Shown here one piece after another: positions 36,561 through 49,033 of a stretch of DNA of 64,000 bases. The first letter of the stretch is position 1. Each line of letters opens with the position of its first letter. The translations under genes and the position numbers were made by a program. The DNA comes from Rhodothermales bacterium (GTDB lineage Bacteria; Bacteroidota; Rhodothermia; Rhodothermales; JANQRZ01): assembly GCA_039944855.1 (NCBI GenBank), contig JBDUXZ010000011.1, positions 62,001 to 126,000 of the forward strand, in the 5' to 3' direction. The notes beneath the pieces are model-generated. The model saw only the letters and a program-made list of their open reading frames with translations. It had not been told where the DNA came from and made no database searches.

Positions 36561-38078
36561 CTACTCCCCCTGCGCGAGGGAGAAGCCGGGCGTGCCGTCG
36601 AAGGCGTAGAGGTTCTCCGTCTTGATCACGTCGAACCCCGCCTTCACGAGCCGCCGCTGGAGGTCGACGACCTGCTCGGGGCGGACGGTGCCGTCGGGCG
36701 CGGTGAAGCGGCAGCGCCAGTGGTCGGTCCAGAACGTCTCGGGGAGGCCGTCGGGGTAGACCTTCACGCCGCGGTTCGTGATGAGCTTGAGGGCGAGCCC
36801 GTTGCCGCCGTGCTCCTTCAGCCGCGTGCCGAGGACGTCGGGCGCGCGCCCGGCCTCGTCCCAGTCGAGGAAGACGTCGACGCCGACGAGCGTCTTCGCC
36901 TGATGCTTCGACGGCGTGACCTCGACGTGGATGCCGGTGCCGTGGTAGTGCACGGGCTCGAGGTGGCGGGGCTTCTCGCCGAGCCGCTCGATCACGGCAT
37001 CGGTGAAGTGCTCGGTCGAGAGTTGCCGGTGGCTGAGGTGCGGGCGGTAGATATCTGGCGTGTGGAGGCCCGCTTCGAGCGTGGCGAGCCATGCGTTCTT
37101 GATGGTCTCGGCGATGCGCGGGAGGCCGAGGTGGACGAGCATCATCGCCGCGCCGCGCAGCAGCCCCGACGGGTTCGCCACGCCGCGCCCAGCGATGTCC
37201 GGGGCCGAGCCGTGGATGGCCTCGAACATCGCGAAGTCGCTCCCGACGTTCGCCGAGCCGGCGAGCCCGACGGAGCCCGACGCCTCGGCCGCGATGTCGG
37301 AGAGGATGTCGCCGTAGAGGTTCGGCGCGACGATGACGTCGAGCGTCTCGGAGCGCGCCGCCACGAGCGCCGCGCCGATGTCGATGATGCGGTGCTCGGC
37401 CTCGATCTCCCCATACTCGGCGGCGATCTCGTCGAAGACGCGGTGGAAGAGGCCGTCGGTGAGCTTCATGATGTTGTCCTTCGTCATGCACGTCACGCGG
37501 CGGCGGCCGTGGGCGCGGGCATACTCGAAGGCGTAGCGGACGATGGCTTCGGAGCCAGGCCGCGTGATGAGCTTGAGCGTCTGCGTGACCTCCGTCGTCT
37601 GCCGGTGCTCGATGCCGGCGTAGGTGTCCTCCTCGTTCTCGCGGATGATGACGAGGTCCATCCGCGGCTGCGCCGCCGCGACGAACGGGCTGTAGCTCTT
37701 GCACGGGCGGACGTTCGCGTACATCCCGAGCGCCTTGCGCAGCGTCACGTTGAGGCTCTTGTAGCCGCCGCCCTGCGGCGTCGTGATTGGCGCTTTGAGG
37801 AAGACGCGGTGGCGGCGGAGCACGTCCCACGCCTCGGGCGCGATGCCGGACGTGTGGCCCTGCCGGTAGACGCCCTCGCCGATGTCGATCACGTCGTAGC
37901 GGAGCGGCGCGCCGGCCGCGTCGAGGATGCGGAGCGTGGCCTCCATGATCTCCGGGCCGATGCCGTCGCCGTGCGCGACGGCAATCGGGATAGGCTGGGG
38001 GATGTCGGTCTGAGGCTCTGCGGCCGTCGGGGTGAGCGTGTCGGCGTCGGCGGCGTGGCCGTTCGTGAGATTGGTCAT
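36561..38078 (-). CDS. icd: NADP-dependent isocitrate dehydrogenase, Thermus-like long form
   Basis: 505 residues. IPIAVAHGDGIGPEIMEATL, LNVTLRKALGMYANVRP, DLVIIRENEEDTYAGIEHR, CMTKDNIMKLTDGLFHRV, VAPNLYGDILSDIAAEASG and EAIHGSAPDIAGRGVANPSG are the beta-decarboxylating dehydrogenase blocks. The C-terminal 140 residues (KTLVGVDVFLDWDEAGRAPD onward) are an extra domain seen in the long Thermus/Bacteroidota IDH group. It makes 2-oxoglutarate in the TCA cycle; NADP preference is inference from group. Confidence 0.92.
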   Translation of the reverse strand: MTNLTNGHAADADTLTPTAAEPQTDIPQPIPIAVAHGDGIGPEIMEATLRILDAAGAPLRYDVIDIGEGVYRQGHTSGIAPEAWDVLRRHRVFLKAPITTPQGGGYKSLNVTLRKALGMYANVRPCKSYSPFVAAAQPRMDLVIIRENEEDTYAGIEHRQTTEVTQTLKLITRPGSEAIVRYAFEYARAHGRRRVTCMTKDNIMKLTDGLFHRVFDEIAAEYGEIEAEHRIIDIGAALVAARSETLDVIVAPNLYGDILSDIAAEASGSVGLAGSANVGSDFAMFEAIHGSAPDIAGRGVANPSGLLRGAAMMLVHLGLPRIAETIKNAWLATLEAGLHTPDIYRPHLSHRQLSTEHFTDAVIERLGEKPRHLEPVHYHGTGIHVEVTPSKHQAKTLVGVDVFLDWDEAGRAPDVLGTRLKEHGGNGLALKLITNRGVKVYPDGLPETFWTDHWRCRFTAPDGTVRPEQVVDLQRRLVKAGFDVIKTENLYAFDGTPGFSLAQGE

Positions 38079-38139
38079 GGGATCGGGAGGTTGGGTTCGG
38101 GGAGGAATGAGGACGCGGGCGTGGGGAGCGCGCGGCGGG

Positions 38140-39192
38140 TCAGACCGGGCGGAGCTCGGCCATGAGCGCGCGCAGGTCCGTCGTGCGGGCGCGCTCTTCC
38201 ACGGCGGGCCGGTGCGTCTGGTAGAGGCTGCGGCCCTGCTCGGCGTGTCGCTCGAAGAGGCCCCGGAGGGCATCGGTGCTGAGCCGACGGCCGCCGCCGT
38301 AGTAGGCCTTCGCGGCGTGGCCGAGCGCGTAGGTGGCCGCGAAGGTGAAGGCGGAGCCCGTAGCAGCGGCGGCGACGGTCTTCGCCTTCTTGCCTTTCTT
38401 CCCCTTCTTCTTGCCGCCCATCGCCTTCCCGAGCGTGGCCTGCGCGAGCCCCCCGAAGAGGCCCCGCGCGTAGGTCTCGGCCACCTGCGAGGTCAGGCCG
38501 AGCCCCACCGTCGCGAGCAGTTCCTTGGCGTGGCCCTGATCGAGTTGGTGCCCGTAGTGGAGCCCGACGCGGTACACCATCTTCGTCTGCATCGGGATGA
38601 CGGCGAGGGTGGCGATCTTCTGCGGCAGGAGTTCCAGCCCGCCGTTGAGGACGGCGTAGCGGAGGATCATCCCGTCGAGCGCCGCGTCGGCGTCGTGTGC
38701 CGCGGGGATCACCTCCTCCGGGGCAGCGAGGACGAGCACACCGCTTGCCGCACCGTCGCCGGTGGCGAGCGTTCCCGTCGGGACGGCCGACCCGGTCCTC
38801 GCCGTGTGGGCGTCGGCGTCGGCCGGCGGCAGCGCGAGGGCGTCGCCCACGGCGTCGATCTCGGAGGCGGTTTCGGGGTCGAGCCCGAGCGCGTGGCGGA
38901 GGCGGTCGAGGAACGCTTGCTCGGCGGCGTCCGCACGGCCGTCCGCGTCACAGATCCCGACGGCCATTTCGTAGGCCAGCGCGCGCACGGCCGGCGTCGT
39001 GAGCCGGGCGGCCTCGTCGTCGAGGCTCGCGTGGCCGAGCAGGACGCGCTCGGTGCGCGCGGGGGAGAACCCGGCGTCGAGGCTGGCGAACACGTCGCGG
39101 AGCCGCGTGCGCTCGCGCTCGTCGTTGCGGCCGTCGGCGAAGGCGGCCATCAGGCAGAGGGTGGCGACGGCGTCGCGTTCGTTCGTCGTCAT
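38140..39192 (-). CDS. TerB-like and DUF697 protein
   Basis: 350 residues. N-terminal TerB-like helical domain (about 1-115: LCLMAAFADGRNDERERTRL, VGICDADGRADAAEQAFLDR). C-terminal DUF697 domain (about 170-335: GMILRYAVLNGGLELLP, QTKMVYRVGLHYGHQL) with a Gly/Lys-rich stretch (GGKKKGKKGKKAK) in the middle and a hydrophobic segment after it. DUF697 proteins are membrane-associated and of unknown role; TerB domains are linked to tellurite/stress responses. Starts 30 nt after the terminator of the upstream operon. Confidence 0.85.
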   Translation of the reverse strand: MTTNERDAVATLCLMAAFADGRNDERERTRLRDVFASLDAGFSPARTERVLLGHASLDDEAARLTTPAVRALAYEMAVGICDADGRADAAEQAFLDRLRHALGLDPETASEIDAVGDALALPPADADAHTARTGSAVPTGTLATGDGAASGVLVLAAPEEVIPAAHDADAALDGMILRYAVLNGGLELLPQKIATLAVIPMQTKMVYRVGLHYGHQLDQGHAKELLATVGLGLTSQVAETYARGLFGGLAQATLGKAMGGKKKGKKGKKAKTVAAAATGSAFTFAATYALGHAAKAYYGGGRRLSTDALRGLFERHAEQGRSLYQTHRPAVEERARTTDLRALMAELRPV

Positions 39193-39221: not shown

Positions 39222-39264
39222 AAAAAAGGCCGACACGCGACGCCGGGGCGTCGGATGTCGGCCT
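39222..39264 (-). terminator. Intrinsic terminator of the antiporter/carbonic anhydrase operon
   Basis: On the minus strand AGGCCGACA (39256-39264) pairs with TGTCGGCCT (39227-39235) with an inner 7-bp stem (38-44 with 47-53 of the 39200s), followed at once by six T (39222-39227). It closes the operon that ends with the MpsC gene at 39374. Confidence 0.9.
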
Positions 39265-39373: not shown

Positions 39374-39742
39374 CTATACCTCGTCGAATAGCGGCTGTTC
39401 CAGCCCGAAGACGAAAACGCGCTCGCCCGTCCGCGTGCTGATGTCGGTGTGCATCGAGACGACGGGCACGCCGACTTCGGCCTCGACGAGGCGGGCGAGC
39501 GCGGCGTCGGAGCCCTCGATCAGGCGCGAGCGCACCTGCTTGATGAGCTCGACGCCGCCGGGTTCGAGGCTGAGCTGCTGCTCGGCCGTGCTCAGAATCC
39601 CCTTCATCCGCACGAGGACGAGGTCCTGCACGACGAAGGTGCGGGCTTCCCGAGGCCCGCGCCCCAGGAAGTCCCGCTCGAACTGCGTGAGCGCCGCCGT
39701 GACGGCCGCCTCGACCTGCCCTTTCGTCTTCGGTGCTGGCAT
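39374..39742 (-). CDS. mpsC: MpsC-family (DUF2294) protein
   Basis: 122 residues, soluble. The DUF2294 pattern is clear: KTKGQVEAAVTAALTQFERD, GRGPREARTFVVQDLVLVRM, LSTAEQQLSL, IKQVRSRLIEGSD, VSMHTDISTRTGERVFVFGL. MpsC is the third gene of the mpsABC locus of staphylococci, where MpsAB is a bicarbonate/sodium-linked transporter. Here MpsA and MpsB are absent from the window, and MpsC directly follows a carbonic anhydrase gene with an 8-nt gap. Its biochemical role is not known. Confidence 0.88.
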   Translation of the reverse strand: MPAPKTKGQVEAAVTAALTQFERDFLGRGPREARTFVVQDLVLVRMKGILSTAEQQLSLEPGGVELIKQVRSRLIEGSDAALARLVEAEVGVPVVSMHTDISTRTGERVFVFGLEQPLFDEV

Positions 39743-39750
39743 GGTCCGGG

Positions 39751-40497
39751 TCAGTCCGCGTTGATCGTCTCGGCCGTGATCATCGAGTCCTCGAAGAACA
39801 TGACCTCGCCCGTCGCCACGTCATGCATGGCGCCGACGACGATGAGCTTGCCTTCCTCGACGAGCCCGTACATCACCGGGCTCCGCTCGACCATGTTGCG
39901 GACGGTCATCTCCACGTTCTCGTGCGCGACGGCCTGCACGAACGTGGGGTTGCTCGACGTGTACGGCCCGGCCACGTCGTCGCGCACGGCGTAGACGGCC
40001 GGAGCGATGTTGGCGAGCGTGCTCGTGAGGTTGCCGAGCTCGACGTGGTCGCACGCGCCTTTCACGGCACCGCACTCGGTGTGGCCGAGGACCACGATCA
40101 CCTTCGAGCCGGCCGCGGCCGTCGCGAACTCGAGCGAGCCGAGGATGTCGGTGTTGACGAAGTTGCCGGCCACGCGCGCCGAGAAGATGTCGCCGACGCC
40201 CTTGTCGAAGATGATCTCGTGGGGGACGCGGCTGTCGATGCAGCCGAGGATAGAGGCCATCGGATACTGCCCGCCGGCCGTCTGGCGGACCTGGGCGAGG
40301 AAATCACGCTCGACCGACTCACCGGCGAGGAACCGCTGGTTGCCGTCTTTGAGGAGCTGGAGCACTTCCATCGGCGTGAGCGCCGCCTGCGTCTCCGCCG
40401 TCAGCGGAGCGGTGAGGTCGCGCTCCTGCGCCGAGGCGGGCGCGGCGAGGAAGAGGACCGCGAGGGCGAGGGCAGAAAAAGAGAAAGTGGTTCGCAT
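39751..40497 (-). CDS. Exported beta-class carbonic anhydrase
   Basis: 248 residues. Sec signal peptide with cleavage after PASA (residue 23), so periplasmic. Zinc ligands C86, H139, C142 and the Asp88-Arg90 dyad are present (ILGCIDSRVP, LGHTECGAVKGA), as are KDGNQRFLAG and ARVAGNFV. It interconverts CO2 and bicarbonate plus a proton. Most beta-CAs are cytosolic; a periplasmic one linked to MpsC and NhaA suggests a role in inorganic carbon supply or local pH control. 85 nt after nhaA and 8 nt before mpsC. Confidence 0.95.
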   Translation of the reverse strand: MRTTFSFSALALAVLFLAAPASAQERDLTAPLTAETQAALTPMEVLQLLKDGNQRFLAGESVERDFLAQVRQTAGGQYPMASILGCIDSRVPHEIIFDKGVGDIFSARVAGNFVNTDILGSLEFATAAAGSKVIVVLGHTECGAVKGACDHVELGNLTSTLANIAPAVYAVRDDVAGPYTSSNPTFVQAVAHENVEMTVRNMVERSPVMYGLVEEGKLIVVGAMHDVATGEVMFFEDSMITAETINAD

Positions 40498-40582
40498 GAG
40501 GGTAAAGGGTGTTGGGTTGTGAAGGGTGTAGAGAACGCCGGCCGTGCCCGCCCGAGTCGGCGGGCGGCCGGTTTGTGGGAGA

Positions 40583-41956
40583 TCAAGCGGCCGGCTCCGC
40601 CTCGAGCCGTCGGCCGGGCGCCGCCGCGGTCGCGGTCGGCGGGGCGGACCGCACGAGGAGCACCCAGCCGATAAGGCCGGAGATGAGCGAGCCTACGAGG
40701 ATGCCGAGCTTGGCGCTGTCGAGCAGCGCCGCCTGGCCGGGGAAGGCTAGCGTCGCGATGAAAATCGACATCGTGAAGCCGATGCCGCAGAGCGCGCTGA
40801 TGCCGACGACCTGCCGCCACGTCGCGCCCGCCGGGAGCGTCGCGAGGCCGCTCTTGACGGCGATCCACGCGCAGAGCGTGATCCCGATCGGCTTGCCGAC
40901 GACGAGGCCGAGCACGATGCCGAGCGTCACCGGGCTCGCGAAGAGCTCGGCGAACCCGCCCGTGACGGCGACGCCAGCGTTCGCGAGCGCGAAAATCGGG
41001 ATGATGAAGAAGGCGACGGGCTTGTGGAGGCCGTGCTCCAGCCGCGCGAGCGGCGTCTCCGCCGCCTCGCAGGCGTTCTCGAGCGCGAAGATCGCGTTCT
41101 GCTGCTGGAGCGTCGGCTCGGCCTCGCCCGGCTGCACGTCCTCGGCGAACGAGCGGAGGTACTCCCGCGCGCGGTCGAGGAAGTCCGGCGCGTCGAGCCG
41201 CCGGTGGACGGGGATCGTGAGGGCGAGGAGCACGCCGGCGACGGTCGCGTGGACGCCCGACTTCAGGAACGCCAGCCACAGCCCGAGCCCGAGGATCATG
41301 TACACCGCCGTCTTCATCACGCCGAGCCGGTTGAGCACGACGAGCGCGGCGAGGAAGCCGCCCGCCCACATCAGCGCGACGGTCGACACCTCGGCCGTGT
41401 AAAAGAGCGCGATGACGAGCACGGCGCCGAGATCGTCGACGATCGCGAGCGCGGTGAGGAACACCTTGAGCGCGAGCGGGACGCGGGGGCCGAGGAGCGC
41501 GAGCACGCCGAGCGCGAACGCGATGTCCGTCGCCATCGGAATCCCCCAGCCGCTGATGCCGACGCCACCCGCGTTGAGCAGGACGTAGGCGAGCGCGGGC
41601 ACGGCCATCCCGCCGAACGCGGCGGCCACGGCGAGCGCGGCGCTCTTCGGGTTCGACAGCTCGCCGCCGAGCACTTCGCGCTTGATCTCCAGCCCGACGA
41701 GCAGGAAGAAAATCGCCATGAGCCCGTCGTTGATCCACAGCAGCAGCGCTTTCGAGATCACGAACGAGCCCGCGCCGACCGTCACGGTCGTCTGCCACAC
41801 GTCGAAGTACGACGCGGCGAACGGGCTGTTGGCCCACGCGAAGGCGACGACGGCGCAGACCAACAGCAGGATGCCGCCGGCGGCCTCGGCGCGGAAGAAC
41901 GCCTGCAGCGGCCCGATGATCGGGTGGGAGGACTTAGGGGACAATGGAGTAGCCAT
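40583..41956 (-). CDS. nhaA: Na+/H+ antiporter NhaA
   Basis: 457 residues, about 12 membrane segments. Cation site residues D144 (MATDIAFALGVLALLG) and D174-D175 (AIVDDLGAVLVIA) match E. coli D133 and D163/D164. VGLEIKREVLGGEL is the usual block after TM2. It exchanges external protons for internal Na+ and protects at high pH or salt. The large loop near 270-310 and the extended C-terminus are typical of longer NhaA forms. 33 nt after the CPA2-EIIA gene. Confidence 0.96.
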   Translation of the reverse strand: MATPLSPKSSHPIIGPLQAFFRAEAAGGILLLVCAVVAFAWANSPFAASYFDVWQTTVTVGAGSFVISKALLLWINDGLMAIFFLLVGLEIKREVLGGELSNPKSAALAVAAAFGGMAVPALAYVLLNAGGVGISGWGIPMATDIAFALGVLALLGPRVPLALKVFLTALAIVDDLGAVLVIALFYTAEVSTVALMWAGGFLAALVVLNRLGVMKTAVYMILGLGLWLAFLKSGVHATVAGVLLALTIPVHRRLDAPDFLDRAREYLRSFAEDVQPGEAEPTLQQQNAIFALENACEAAETPLARLEHGLHKPVAFFIIPIFALANAGVAVTGGFAELFASPVTLGIVLGLVVGKPIGITLCAWIAVKSGLATLPAGATWRQVVGISALCGIGFTMSIFIATLAFPGQAALLDSAKLGILVGSLISGLIGWVLLVRSAPPTATAAAPGRRLEAEPAA

Positions 41957-41989
41957 ATCGATACAGGAGAGCGTCGGGAGGAAGGGACG

Positions 41990-44269
41990 TTAGTTGCGGC
42001 TCGGAGCGAGGTCGGGCGGCGCGTCGAGCAGGCGGCGGCGTGGGGCGTCGAGGACGAGCCGGCGCAGCGCGGCCGCGTCGGAGGCGGCGAGCCAGCGCCG
42101 CTCGAAGTCGCCGGACTGCACGACCTGGGCGATCGCCGAGAGCGTGCGGAGGTGGCGCGAGCGGGCGTCCGGCGCGGCGACGATCACGAACGCCGCACGG
42201 ACCGGCTCCTCGTGGTTCGGGAAGAGGATGCCCTCGCGGCAGCGGACGACGGCGAGGACGAAGGTCCCGCGCCCGCTCATGCGGACGTGCGGGATCGCGA
42301 GGCCCGGCAGGATGACCGTGCTGTTCGTCGTCTCCCGGCTGATGAGCCGCTCCATCAGCCGCTCCGGCTTGGTCCCGACGGCTGGTGCTAGCTCGCCAGA
42401 CACGACCTTCGCGAAGTCGGCGATCGAGAGCGGGCCGTCGAGGTCGAGCACCGGCGCCTCGGCGATGAGACGGTGGAAATCGTCGAGCGGCTCGGCGTGG
42501 TGGCGGAGGACGTAGACGGCGTCGCCGGGGCGGAGCGCGCCGCCGCTGTGGGCGGGCGCGGCCACGCCGCCGCGGACAACGACGAGCGGGAGCCAGTCTT
42601 TCCCCTGTGCGGTGGCGAGCGCGGCCAGCGTCGTCGCTTCTTCGACGGCGTGCGGCTCCACGGCCGTCTCGCCCCCGGCGATGCGGAGGTCCCACGCATC
42701 GATCCGTGTCGGCCCGCCGAAGAGGGTCTGCGCGCCGAGGTGGGCGGCGAGCTCGTCGTGCGGCGTCCGCGCCTCGTTCCGGTCGAGGACGTAGATGTCC
42801 GGCACGGCGAACGTCTCGCGGGCGAGGCGGGCCGCGAGGACGTCGACCTCGGGGTTCCGCGTGAGGGCGACGAGGGCGCCGGCGTGGGCGGCCTCGGCCT
42901 GGCTCAGCACGCGCTCGTCGAGGGCGCTGCCGCGGATCGCGCGGAGCCCCTCGCGCTCGGCGGCGGCGACGTGGGCCGCGCTGCTGTCCACGATCCGCAC
43001 GTCGGCGCCGTGCTCGCCGAGGACGCGGGCCAGCAGCCGCGCCGTCGGCCCGCCGCCGACGATGACGGTCCCGCTCCGCTCCTCGCGCGAGCGCTCGAGC
43101 TCGCCGCGCCCGCGCAGCCACGCCACGCCCCACTTCAGCGTCACGGGCACGAGCGCCGTCGTCGCGATCGCCATGAAGACGAGGACGGAGAAGATGTCCT
43201 GCGAGATGAGCCCCATCGAGAGCGCGATCTGTGCGACGATGATCTCGACCGCGCCGCGCCCGTTCATCCCGAGCCCGATCGTCGTCCCCTCACGCCAGCC
43301 GTGGCCCGTCGGCAGATAAAACAGCGCGGTCCCGACGACTTTCCCAACGGACGCGAGCCCGACAAGCCCGAGCAGGAGGACGAGGTCCGTCCGGAAGATG
43401 TCGAGCGAGACGGCGAACCCGGCCGTCACGAAAAAGACGGGCGCGAGGAAGCCGATCGACACGTCGCGGACGACGTGCATGATCTCTTGGGATAGCGAGC
43501 GGCCGAGCACGCTCTCTCGCAGGAAGAGCCCGGCGAGGAACGCCCCGAGGATGCCGTGCATCCCGGCGAGGTGCGCGCCCTCGGCGTAGGCCAGCATCAC
43601 GAGGAGGATGGCGGTGAACTTCGCCGTCCGGCTCGGCACGCGCTCCAGCCAGCGCCCGAGCGTGGGCAGCACTTTGAGCCCGACGAGCACGGCGAGCGCG
43701 AAGTAGCCCACGGCCCCGACGAGCACGGTCGCCAGCCGCTCCACCTCGAACGTCCCGCTCTCCGCCACGCCGAGCACGACGGCGAAGAGCACGAGCGAGA
43801 CGGTGTCGGCGACGAGCGCGCCCGCCATCATCACGTGTGCGATCCGCGTGTCGAGCAAGTGCAAATCGACGAGGATGCGCGACTTCGTGGCGAGGCTCGT
43901 CACGCCCGCCGCGAGCCCGACGAACACGCCCGCGATCGGTGGGAAGCCGAGGGCGACGACGAGGAGGTAGCACAGCACGAACGGCGTGATGAACCCGCCG
44001 ACCGCCGCCAGAATCCCCCCTTTCGACGCCCGTCCCAGCTCGCCCGGGTCGATCTCCATCCCGATGTAGAGCATCATCAGCAAGATGCCCACCTCCGCGA
44101 TCACCGCGAGCGCCTCGCCCCCCTGCAGCAGCCCGAGGAGGGGCGGCCCGAGGGCGATACCGGCGAGCAGCTCCCCGAGCACGGCGGGGTAGCCGAGCCG
44201 GCTGGCGATGAGGCCGGCGAGCCAGGCGACGACGAGGACGGCGAGGAGGTTCAGCAGGCTGAGTTCCAT
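41990..44269 (-). CDS. CPA2 cation/proton antiporter with RCK and PTS EIIA domains
   Basis: 759 residues. Membrane part (1-385) with about 12 segments of the KefB/CPA2 type (YPAVLGELLAGIALGP, LMMLYIGMEIDP, HGILGAFLAGLFLRE, IGLGMNGRGAVEIIV). TrkA-N/RCK_N (about 400-515; TVIVGGGPTARLLARVLGE), RCK_C-like (about 525-595), and a C-terminal PTS EIIA type 2 domain (about 605-755) with the phosphoryl-accepting His in LPGLAIPHVRMSG (His661). The antiporter would be gated by nucleotides and possibly by phosphorylation. This fusion is known in marine and alkaliphile bacteria. First gene of a probable operon with nhaA, carbonic anhydrase and mpsC. Confidence 0.93.
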   Translation of the reverse strand: MELSLLNLLAVLVVAWLAGLIASRLGYPAVLGELLAGIALGPPLLGLLQGGEALAVIAEVGILLMMLYIGMEIDPGELGRASKGGILAAVGGFITPFVLCYLLVVALGFPPIAGVFVGLAAGVTSLATKSRILVDLHLLDTRIAHVMMAGALVADTVSLVLFAVVLGVAESGTFEVERLATVLVGAVGYFALAVLVGLKVLPTLGRWLERVPSRTAKFTAILLVMLAYAEGAHLAGMHGILGAFLAGLFLRESVLGRSLSQEIMHVVRDVSIGFLAPVFFVTAGFAVSLDIFRTDLVLLLGLVGLASVGKVVGTALFYLPTGHGWREGTTIGLGMNGRGAVEIIVAQIALSMGLISQDIFSVLVFMAIATTALVPVTLKWGVAWLRGRGELERSREERSGTVIVGGGPTARLLARVLGEHGADVRIVDSSAAHVAAAEREGLRAIRGSALDERVLSQAEAAHAGALVALTRNPEVDVLAARLARETFAVPDIYVLDRNEARTPHDELAAHLGAQTLFGGPTRIDAWDLRIAGGETAVEPHAVEEATTLAALATAQGKDWLPLVVVRGGVAAPAHSGGALRPGDAVYVLRHHAEPLDDFHRLIAEAPVLDLDGPLSIADFAKVVSGELAPAVGTKPERLMERLISRETTNSTVILPGLAIPHVRMSGRGTFVLAVVRCREGILFPNHEEPVRAAFVIVAAPDARSRHLRTLSAIAQVVQSGDFERRWLAASDAAALRRLVLDAPRRRLLDAPPDLAPSRN

Positions 44270-46819: not shown

Positions 46820-49033
46820 TCAGCGCACGACGGTCAGCTTCCGCGCCTGCGTCGTGCCGTCGGCGGTGAGGCGGACGAAGTAGACGCCGCTCGGGAGGCC
46901 CGACGCATCGAACGCCGCCGACTGGGAGCCCGCCGCCTGCGGCCCGTCCGCCAGCACGGCCACAGTCCGCCCGAGCACGTCGATCACCTCAATGCGTGCG
47001 GTGCCGCTCTCGGGCATCTCGAAGCGCACGGTGAGCCCGTCGGCCGTGAGCGGGTTCGGGTAGAGCACGCCGAGCGACGGCGTCTCGCCCGGTGTGGCGC
47101 CCGTCTCGTTCGCCACCGGGTTTGCCCCGAGAAAGAGAAAGGGCTTCATCTCGTACGTCTGGTAGAGCGGCCACTGGTCGGCGATGTGCGGGCTCGGTTG
47201 GCCGACCGAGTTGAAGAAGGCGCTCTGTCCGGGCGGGACCATGTTCTCCGCGCGGCTCCCATTCTCCGCGAACTGCAGGAGCTGCTGGTACGTGCCCGGG
47301 TACTCCCGCGCGTCGATCACCGCGTGGATCCCCTTCATCTCATCGAAGGCGAGCGGCACTTCCTGCGTCACAAACTCCTCAATGTCGAGCACGCCGTCGT
47401 AGCTCCGGCCGCCGGCGGGCGCCCACGGCATGATGTCGCCGTGATCCCACCAGACGGCGGGCTTGTTATTCCAGTTGACGTAGTAGCCCTGCGCCGGGTT
47501 GGCATCCTGCGGGAGGCTCCCGAAGTCGAGGATCCCATCCCACTCCTGCGAGCCGTCGCCGAGGAGCGGGAGGCGCGGGTCGGCCCCATCCGGACGATCG
47601 GGATAGCGGCCGACGTGCCAGAAGTTGATGTTCTGGTCCTTGTCGGCATGGAAGAAATTGAACGAGACCGGGACAATCTCGAGTGCCGCCTCGGCCTCGC
47701 CCACGCTCTCCGCTTTCCAGATGTCGTAGAACGCCGTCGCCATGTCGAGTTCACGGCTCCAGAACGTGTACTGCCACGTGAAAGCCTGCTGGTTGTCGAG
47801 GTCCGTCGCGTAGACCGGCCCGTGAACGGAGCGGTGGTGCGTGAACTCGATCGGCGCACCGCCGAGGACGTTGATCGTCTCCGTGATGACGTCGTAGTCC
47901 ACGAACGATCCGTCGTACAGATAGCGAGAGAGCGTGTTGTCCTCGGTCGTCTCGACGAACGTGTCGACGTTGTCCGATACGCCGCTCGTGAGGGTCCACG
48001 CACGGTCCGCGGTGCGACCGATGATGATGCCCGGAATACCCGGCACCGTCATCCCCGCCACGTGCAACTCGGGATCGTCCACCGAGCCGACGAGGAGTTC
48101 GGACTCCCACGTCACGGCCCGGCCCGTCGCCCCCGGCCCCGTCACGCTCGGCACACCCATCTGCGGCGCCCCGAGCAGCATCACGTCGCCGGACACCGAC
48201 TGGCTCCCGCCGATGAGCGCCGCGTACGACCCGAACTTGCGCGGCACGCCGATCTCATCGTAGAGCCGCTCCACCGCTTCGCGCCGCGCCGCGACGGCCT
48301 CGTGGAGCGCCGGGTCGACGGACGGCCCGCGGTACGTCACCGTCGCCGGGGCGGGCAGCGCCGCTGTGCCAGCAGGGATCGTCGTAGGCGCCGTCGGGTC
48401 GTTGATCGGGCGGTTCTCATCGAACCACGCCTGGCCGTTGGCTTCGAGTTCGGCGAGGCGGTCCAATTCTGCGCCGCCCGCTTCGCCGAACCGACGGATG
48501 AAGAACTGCGTCACCGCCACCAGCTTATCGGTGTCCCACGGCTCAGCGCCGAGCGCCGAGAGCGGGAACTGCGTGTACTCGACGGGCAGGTAGACGTCCG
48601 GATTGGCGACCGTCGAGTCGATGTATGCGTTGACGCCGTCGCGGAAACCGAGCATCATCGTCTGGATCCGGTCGGGGAGCGCCTCGAACTGCGTCTGGCG
48701 CTCGGCAGGCGTGTAAAACAGTGTCCGCGCCTGCTGGTCCGCGCCGACACCCGCCGCGCCGATCAGTTCGGAGAGCCGACCCGTCGAGGAGCGCCAGAAC
48801 GTCTCCATCTGGAAAAGCCGGTCCTGCGCTACGGCGAAGCCCTGCCCGAAGAACACGGCGGCCTCGGTCTCGGCGGTGATGTGCGGCACGCCGAAGTCGT
48901 CACGGTCGATCGTGACCGTCGTGCCGTCGGGGGCTTCGAGGGTGAGGTCCTGCGCGGCCTGGGCCTGCGCGGTGACGAGCGGGGCGCATCCTATCAGCAG
49001 GACGGCGAGGAATCGGACGTAGCGGTTGGGCAT
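46820..49033 (-). CDS. Secreted penicillin-acylase-family amidase with T9SS sorting domain
   Basis: 737 residues with signal peptide (about 1-28). Ntn-hydrolase penicillin acylase blocks: DDFGVPHITAETEAAVFFGQ, GFAVAQDRLFQME, GRLSEL; the presumed new N-terminal nucleophile is Ser269 in KFGSYAALIGGSQSVSGDV, where the usual form is SNxW. Substrates of the family are beta-lactams, acyl-homoserine lactones or cyclic imides. The last 80 residues are a type A T9SS C-terminal domain (LGVLYPNPLTADGLTVRFEM, IEVIDVLGRTVAVLADG, GLPSGVYFVRL), so the protein is exported across the outer membrane. The Ser-Tyr instead of Ser-Asn makes the exact cleavage site tentative. Confidence 0.9.
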   Translation of the reverse strand: MPNRYVRFLAVLLIGCAPLVTAQAQAAQDLTLEAPDGTTVTIDRDDFGVPHITAETEAAVFFGQGFAVAQDRLFQMETFWRSSTGRLSELIGAAGVGADQQARTLFYTPAERQTQFEALPDRIQTMMLGFRDGVNAYIDSTVANPDVYLPVEYTQFPLSALGAEPWDTDKLVAVTQFFIRRFGEAGGAELDRLAELEANGQAWFDENRPINDPTAPTTIPAGTAALPAPATVTYRGPSVDPALHEAVAARREAVERLYDEIGVPRKFGSYAALIGGSQSVSGDVMLLGAPQMGVPSVTGPGATGRAVTWESELLVGSVDDPELHVAGMTVPGIPGIIIGRTADRAWTLTSGVSDNVDTFVETTEDNTLSRYLYDGSFVDYDVITETINVLGGAPIEFTHHRSVHGPVYATDLDNQQAFTWQYTFWSRELDMATAFYDIWKAESVGEAEAALEIVPVSFNFFHADKDQNINFWHVGRYPDRPDGADPRLPLLGDGSQEWDGILDFGSLPQDANPAQGYYVNWNNKPAVWWDHGDIMPWAPAGGRSYDGVLDIEEFVTQEVPLAFDEMKGIHAVIDAREYPGTYQQLLQFAENGSRAENMVPPGQSAFFNSVGQPSPHIADQWPLYQTYEMKPFLFLGANPVANETGATPGETPSLGVLYPNPLTADGLTVRFEMPESGTARIEVIDVLGRTVAVLADGPQAAGSQSAAFDASGLPSGVYFVRLTADGTTQARKLTVVR

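Follow-up and report, generated by a model that had tools for sequence, protein, structure and literature searches.

In a 64,000-nucleotide stretch of the genome of a Rhodothermales bacterium of marine or halophile type (contig JBDUXZ010000011.1, positions 62,001 to 126,000; hereafter the window), four co-directional genes on the minus strand encode a CPA2-RCK-EIIA antiporter (CPA2-EIIA), the Na+/H+ antiporter NhaA, a putatively exported beta-carbonic anhydrase (CA) and MpsC, a protein of the DUF2294 family, and are followed by an intrinsic terminator. The unit is probably a rearranged, split part of a bicarbonate-supply island of Rhodothermales, a reading to which we assign a probability of about two in three. 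The genes are separated by 33 nt (CPA2-EIIA and NhaA), 85 nt (NhaA and CA) and 8 nt (CA and MpsC), and protein profiles together with a hairpin scan confirmed the coordinates, gaps, common strand and terminator given in a preliminary description of the window (Table 1). Absent from that description were a second CPA2 gene upstream, the TerB and isocitrate dehydrogenase genes downstream, a hairpin ahead of the CA gene and an SbtA-SbtB-CA locus elsewhere in the genome. That description had placed the unit in an inorganic-carbon context of which sodium/proton exchange is part. The placement is borne out by the gene orders of relatives, so that the overall interpretation stands in part, by evidence other than that originally offered.

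Evidence for the antiporter link comes from a survey of 245 genomes of the class with a proximity threshold of 10 kb. The expected counts are those for genes placed at random, and genomes that are related do not count as independent observations, a limitation that belongs with the points against our reading gathered below. NhaA and the bicarbonate transporter SbtA are neighbors in nine genomes of three families versus 0.26 expected. The CPA2-EIIA-NhaA pair is found in at least five families besides that of the window, and copies of CPA2-EIIA that are 56-61% identical to that of the window precede NhaA in L071, L161, L143, L145, L146, L150 and L155. In Roseithermus (genome G165, L071) the order is CPA2-EIIA-[48 nt]-NhaA-[96 nt]-SbtA, and in L161 it is CPA2-EIIA-NhaA-SbtA-PII-CPA2. 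A member of the same family as the window genome (G001, L069), whose NhaA is 83% identical to that of the window, has CPA2-EIIA and NhaA followed farther along by porin-like genes and IDH-SbtA-PII-CPA2, where IDH is isocitrate dehydrogenase. A CPA2 gene thus comes after SbtA-SbtB in L069 and L161, and in the window a CPA2 gene lies upstream of the unit. In both cyanobacteria and E. coli, SbtA depends on Na+ (PMC4275256).

The CA begins MRTTFSFSALALAVLFLAAPASA-QERD, which was judged by eye to be a Sec-type signal, with residues 1-23 as the putative signal peptide. An export-type N-terminus is also present in homologues of the window CA, in three cases with a lipobox-like Cys, and is absent from cytosolic CAs, including the other CA of the same genome (alignment A3). 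The protein looks to be exported, in agreement with the signal peptide assigned to it in the preliminary description. Residues C86, D88, R90, H139 and C142, corresponding to the Cys-His-Cys zinc ligands and the Asp-Arg dyad, are invariant in alignment A3. Two genomes of family f13 share the MpsC-exported CA adjacency, in the order MpsC-exported CA-SbtA-PII (L045/L104 and L046/L139), and their exported CAs are 62-65% identical to that of the window. In f11 genomes, an exported CA with up to 85-86% identity to the window CA heads the order CA-porin-IDH-SbtA-PII (L053 and L054), with a second CA in one case. Overall, an exported CA lies near SbtA in six genomes of two families versus 0.13 expected. 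Porin-like exported proteins lie between the exported CA or NhaA and IDH-SbtA in L054 (7592-8824) and L069 (9354-11617). They have no match in Pfam and are labeled from the appearance of their sequences only; it is possible that they form an outer-membrane path for bicarbonate.

The window itself has no match to SbtA, and the bicarbonate transporter is thus absent from the unit. The genome (G000, 97.9% complete) does possess SbtA (PF05982), at C40:55880-56788, where it forms SbtA-SbtB(PII)-cytosolic CA on contig 40 (L052), separate from the window contig; the transport step missing from the window module would be supplied from this second locus. In the scheme we favor, the exported CA would act in the periplasm on leaked, respired or ambient CO2, hydrating it to yield HCO3- and H+, and SbtA would import the HCO3- together with Na+. 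NhaA and the CPA2 exchangers would expel Na+ and return H+, which would both restore the sodium gradient and remove the proton that the CA releases. The cytosolic CA would balance CO2 and HCO3- for carboxylation, and MpsC would work as a soluble accessory. The simplest history, inferred from gene order, is that one island was split and shuffled, with CA-MpsC left where SbtA stands in G165.

MpsC itself is associated with bicarbonate-transporter genes across the class. It occurs in 26 of the 245 genomes, and SbtA or DabA is present in 25 of those 26. MpsC and DabA are neighbors in 16 of the 20 genomes that have both, versus 0.13 expected. In most f12 genomes, a group of relatives that includes Salinibacter, Salinivenus and Longimonas, DabB and DabA are directly downstream of MpsC, often with PII next and sometimes with a CA. 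Published work places mpsC beside mpsAB in staphylococci only (PMC6689103); the MpsC-DabA adjacency in Rhodothermales contradicts this.

IDH is a further recurrent neighbor. The window IDH is of the Thermus type, with 2d1c as its best solved match. Among the 51 class genomes with this type of IDH, 24, from eight families, carry its gene close to MpsC, SbtA, DabA or a CA. SbtA or DabA occurs in 50 of these 51 genomes, a figure inflated by shared ancestry. The recurrence of IDH could possibly reflect an IDH working reductively, the recapture of CO2 from respiration, or a gene order that was simply inherited.

When 84,980 species genomes were scanned, 56 MpsC loci were obtained. Among Bacillota, L111 and L122 have the order MpsC-SbtA-MpsC-PII and L110 is similar. 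In the class of G248 (113 genomes), which served as the Bacillota replicate in place of a G247-centered sample of only three genomes, MpsC and SbtA lie within 5 kb of each other in five of the six genomes having both, versus 0.08 expected. Further Bacillota neighbors of MpsC are biotin carboxylase, an NADH-type formate dehydrogenase, PII and the putative CA family PF20393, and the enzymes found beside MpsC in this phylum use or release CO2 or bicarbonate. Only the transporter links were quantified because there is no background rate for enzyme neighbors. About half of the MpsC loci outside the class showed no carbon gene. Taken together, the neighborhoods suggest that MpsC accompanies bicarbonate transport and CO2 metabolism in more than one phylum.

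Several other gene arrangements were seen around these loci. A CODH-epsilon-like gene and a 2-oxoacid:ferredoxin oxidoreductase come after MpsC-SbtA-MpsC-PII in L110, L111 and L122, and PurE/PurK are near SbtA and MpsC in L110, L113, L117 and L126. The PF20393 putative CA is directly 3' of MpsC in L127, L133 and L136, where one member was scanned and two were assigned by clustering. In L138 (8748-10850) and L105 (9229-11325), from Bacteroidetes and Calditrichota, MpsC is followed by a fusion of an amino-acid permease with EIIA and TrkA_C, and NhaA is nearby in both. In the Calditrichota loci L107 (8001-14356) and L109 (8001-14369), two genes of the MpsC family are accompanied by PsiE, universal stress proteins and a P-type cation ATPase, with no carbon genes in the neighborhood.

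The window MpsC is intact and retains the family-invariant residues; its match to PF10057 covers profile positions 1-110 of 111, and hydropathy gave no hydrophobic segment. Most likely it assists or regulates inorganic-carbon supply as a soluble protein of about 115 amino acids, rather than being a membrane subunit. No solved homologue of MpsC was found. Its AlphaFold model has a mean pLDDT of 88.8, and the best matches to this model in fold searches (Foldseek E of 0.016 and VIA Z of 7.2) fall within the usual background, as do several TRAPP/V4R and H-NOX-like chains at Z of 5-7; no activity can therefore be read from the model. One of 58 MpsC relatives matched the NCBIfam model Upx_antiphage (E of 0.0014), which was taken as chance. 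A broader proposal is that MpsC is a widespread soluble sensor of inorganic carbon (CO2 or bicarbonate) or an allosteric accessory which, in several phyla, serves unrelated carbon-supply systems (DabAB, SbtA and CAs) as well as enzymes that use CO2 or HCO3-, and which in the window is coupled to an exported CA and Na+/H+ exchangers. We regard this proposal as tentative, with the odds somewhat against it.

The published record of MpsC bears on how the window is to be interpreted. In the staphylococcal operon mpsC was called non-functional (PMC6689103; repeated in PMC8552792), and mpsAB by itself suffices to complement a CA mutant of E. coli (PMC6689103; PMC8552792). A search of the literature, in which subscription papers were mostly outside reach, found no link of DUF2294/PF10057 to carbon genes beyond staphylococci. 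In the preliminary description MpsC was taken as a sign of an MpsAB-like, sodium-linked carbon pump, with the possibility that mpsAB or dabAB lay elsewhere in the genome. This argument is not supported, because mpsC is dispensable in S. aureus, where the deletion has no growth phenotype (PMC6689103), and the genome, which has one MpsC, gave no match to DabA/MpsB (PF10070) when searched, SbtA-SbtB-CA being found instead. Membership of MpsC in an MpsAB complex was accordingly rejected for the window genome.

A number of observations weigh against assigning the whole unit to a bicarbonate-supply island. The reading is based on gene composition, order and recurrence. The mutant phenotype just mentioned and the lack of a transporter within the unit count on the same side. 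Recurrence is also uneven: MpsC beside an exported CA is found again in two genomes of another family, as the preliminary description would lead one to expect, and this recurrence, like that of CPA2-EIIA-NhaA, speaks against chance, but of the 25 genomes having both NhaA and an exported CA, only that of the window has them within 10 kb of each other. The exact order NhaA-CA-MpsC is likewise found in the window genome only, among the 245, and the four genes were therefore rejected as a conserved unit. In several families CPA2-EIIA-NhaA occurs without a nearby SbtA or CA (L143, L145, L146, L150 and L155), many of these stretches being short, and a strong hairpin stands between nhaA and the CA gene. 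These same features would fit two independent adjacent units, namely a CPA2-EIIA-NhaA pair for Na+ and pH homeostasis and a carbon pair, CA-mpsC, expressed from a promoter of its own or through transcript processing. We consider such an arrangement unlikely, since SbtA follows the antiporter pair in three families, that of the window included, and the pair therefore recurrently joins carbon genes; the common strand and the short gaps between all of the genes argue in the same direction.

The absence of DabA also raises the question of whether MpsC is left over from an MpsAB (DabAB) operon that has been lost, and now has no role alongside the CA. MpsC heads DabB-DabA in f12, sometimes with IDH (MpsC-IDH-DabB-DabA in L090), so that MpsC-TerB-IDH in the window could be a relic, and neutrality of the S. 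aureus deletion would agree with this. The intact state of the window protein and the occurrence of MpsC-CA-SbtA and MpsC-SbtA in genomes with SbtA as their transporter make a remnant improbable. Slightly less probable again is a role in homeostasis at alkaline or saline pH, in which the exported CA would buffer periplasmic pH and feed protons to the antiporters, with carbon assimilation secondary. NhaA takes up protons from the periplasmic side, where a periplasmic CA would release them, and antiporters head the unit. SbtA, PII and the carboxylation-linked genes of relatives are not needed for pH buffering, however, and none of the DabA-linked MpsC loci of the class has NhaA within 10 kb.

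The proposed bicarbonate-supply island resembles several known systems. As in cyanobacterial SbtA-SbtB, which is accompanied in some species by an extracellular CA (EcaA/EcaB), there is an SbtA with a PII-like SbtB, sodium dependence and a CA, but SbtA of the window genome is on another contig and the exported CA is tied to antiporters and MpsC. The likeness to MpsAB(C)/DabAB lies in MpsC and in the Salinibacter-type relatives, which have MpsC directly before DabB-DabA-PII, some with a CA; the window genome differs in having no DabA. The CA resembles the exported beta-CA subfamily PRK15219 in its above-cut-off match, export-type N-terminus and active-site residues, and differs in its linkage to antiporters and MpsC, the CAs of relatives being linked to SbtA and a porin-like protein. 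NhaA and the CPA2 proteins have full-length domains like those of NhaA and KefB/C-like antiporters, although the CPA2 protein of the unit carries a C-terminal EIIA domain and forms with NhaA a conserved two-gene unit in Rhodothermales. The parts are already known, and it is their assembly and MpsC as a cross-phylum marker of bicarbonate/CO2 that are undescribed in the searchable literature.

To our knowledge, the Rhodothermales class is not known as autotrophic. If the interpretation is right, largely heterotrophic halophiles would build a sodium-driven bicarbonate island from exchangers, exported CA, SbtA or DabAB, PII and, unexpectedly, IDH. An orphan family named for a Staphylococcus operon in which it is dispensable would gain a testable role in inorganic carbon, and the published claim that mpsC is beside mpsAB only in staphylococci would be corrected.

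Table 1. Genes and transcript signals of the unit and its surroundings (window coordinates)
Feature	Coordinates	Strand	Evidence and remarks
CPA2-type cation/proton antiporter, 638 aa	44657..46573	-	TrkA_N + TrkA_C; 387 nt upstream of unit
CPA2-RCK-EIIA antiporter, 759 aa	41990..44269	-	Pfam PF00999, PF02254, PF00359 (Na_H_Exchanger + TrkA_N + PTS_EIIA_2)
NhaA Na+/H+ antiporter, 457 aa	40583..41956	-	PF06965 1e-150, TIGR00773
13-bp GC-rich hairpin in nhaA-CA gap, without U-run	40538..40571	-	-30.1 kcal/mol, z -4.0
Putatively exported beta-CA, 248 aa	39751..40497	-	Pro_CA PF00484 1e-37; NCBIfam PRK15219 above cut-off
MpsC/DUF2294, 122 aa	39374..39742	-	PF10057 7.8e-31, 106.9 bits vs cut-off 23
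Intrinsic terminator 3' of mpsC (stem + U-run)	39227..39264	-	z -4.3
TerB/DUF533-like protein, between mpsC and IDH	38140..39192	-	Pfam
Thermus-type IDH, PF18324 C-terminal domain, 570 aa as called	36561..38273	-	

The hairpin that precedes the CA gene may be a processing or attenuation site that splits or processes the transcript. A promoter scan found no consensus promoter in the gaps of the unit, the consensus being that of sigma-70, which may not apply to this phylum. The TerB gene is expected to be on a separate transcript because the terminator precedes it. Farther upstream, at 46820-49033, the window encodes a protein of the penicillin-amidase family with a C-terminal Por secretion tail.

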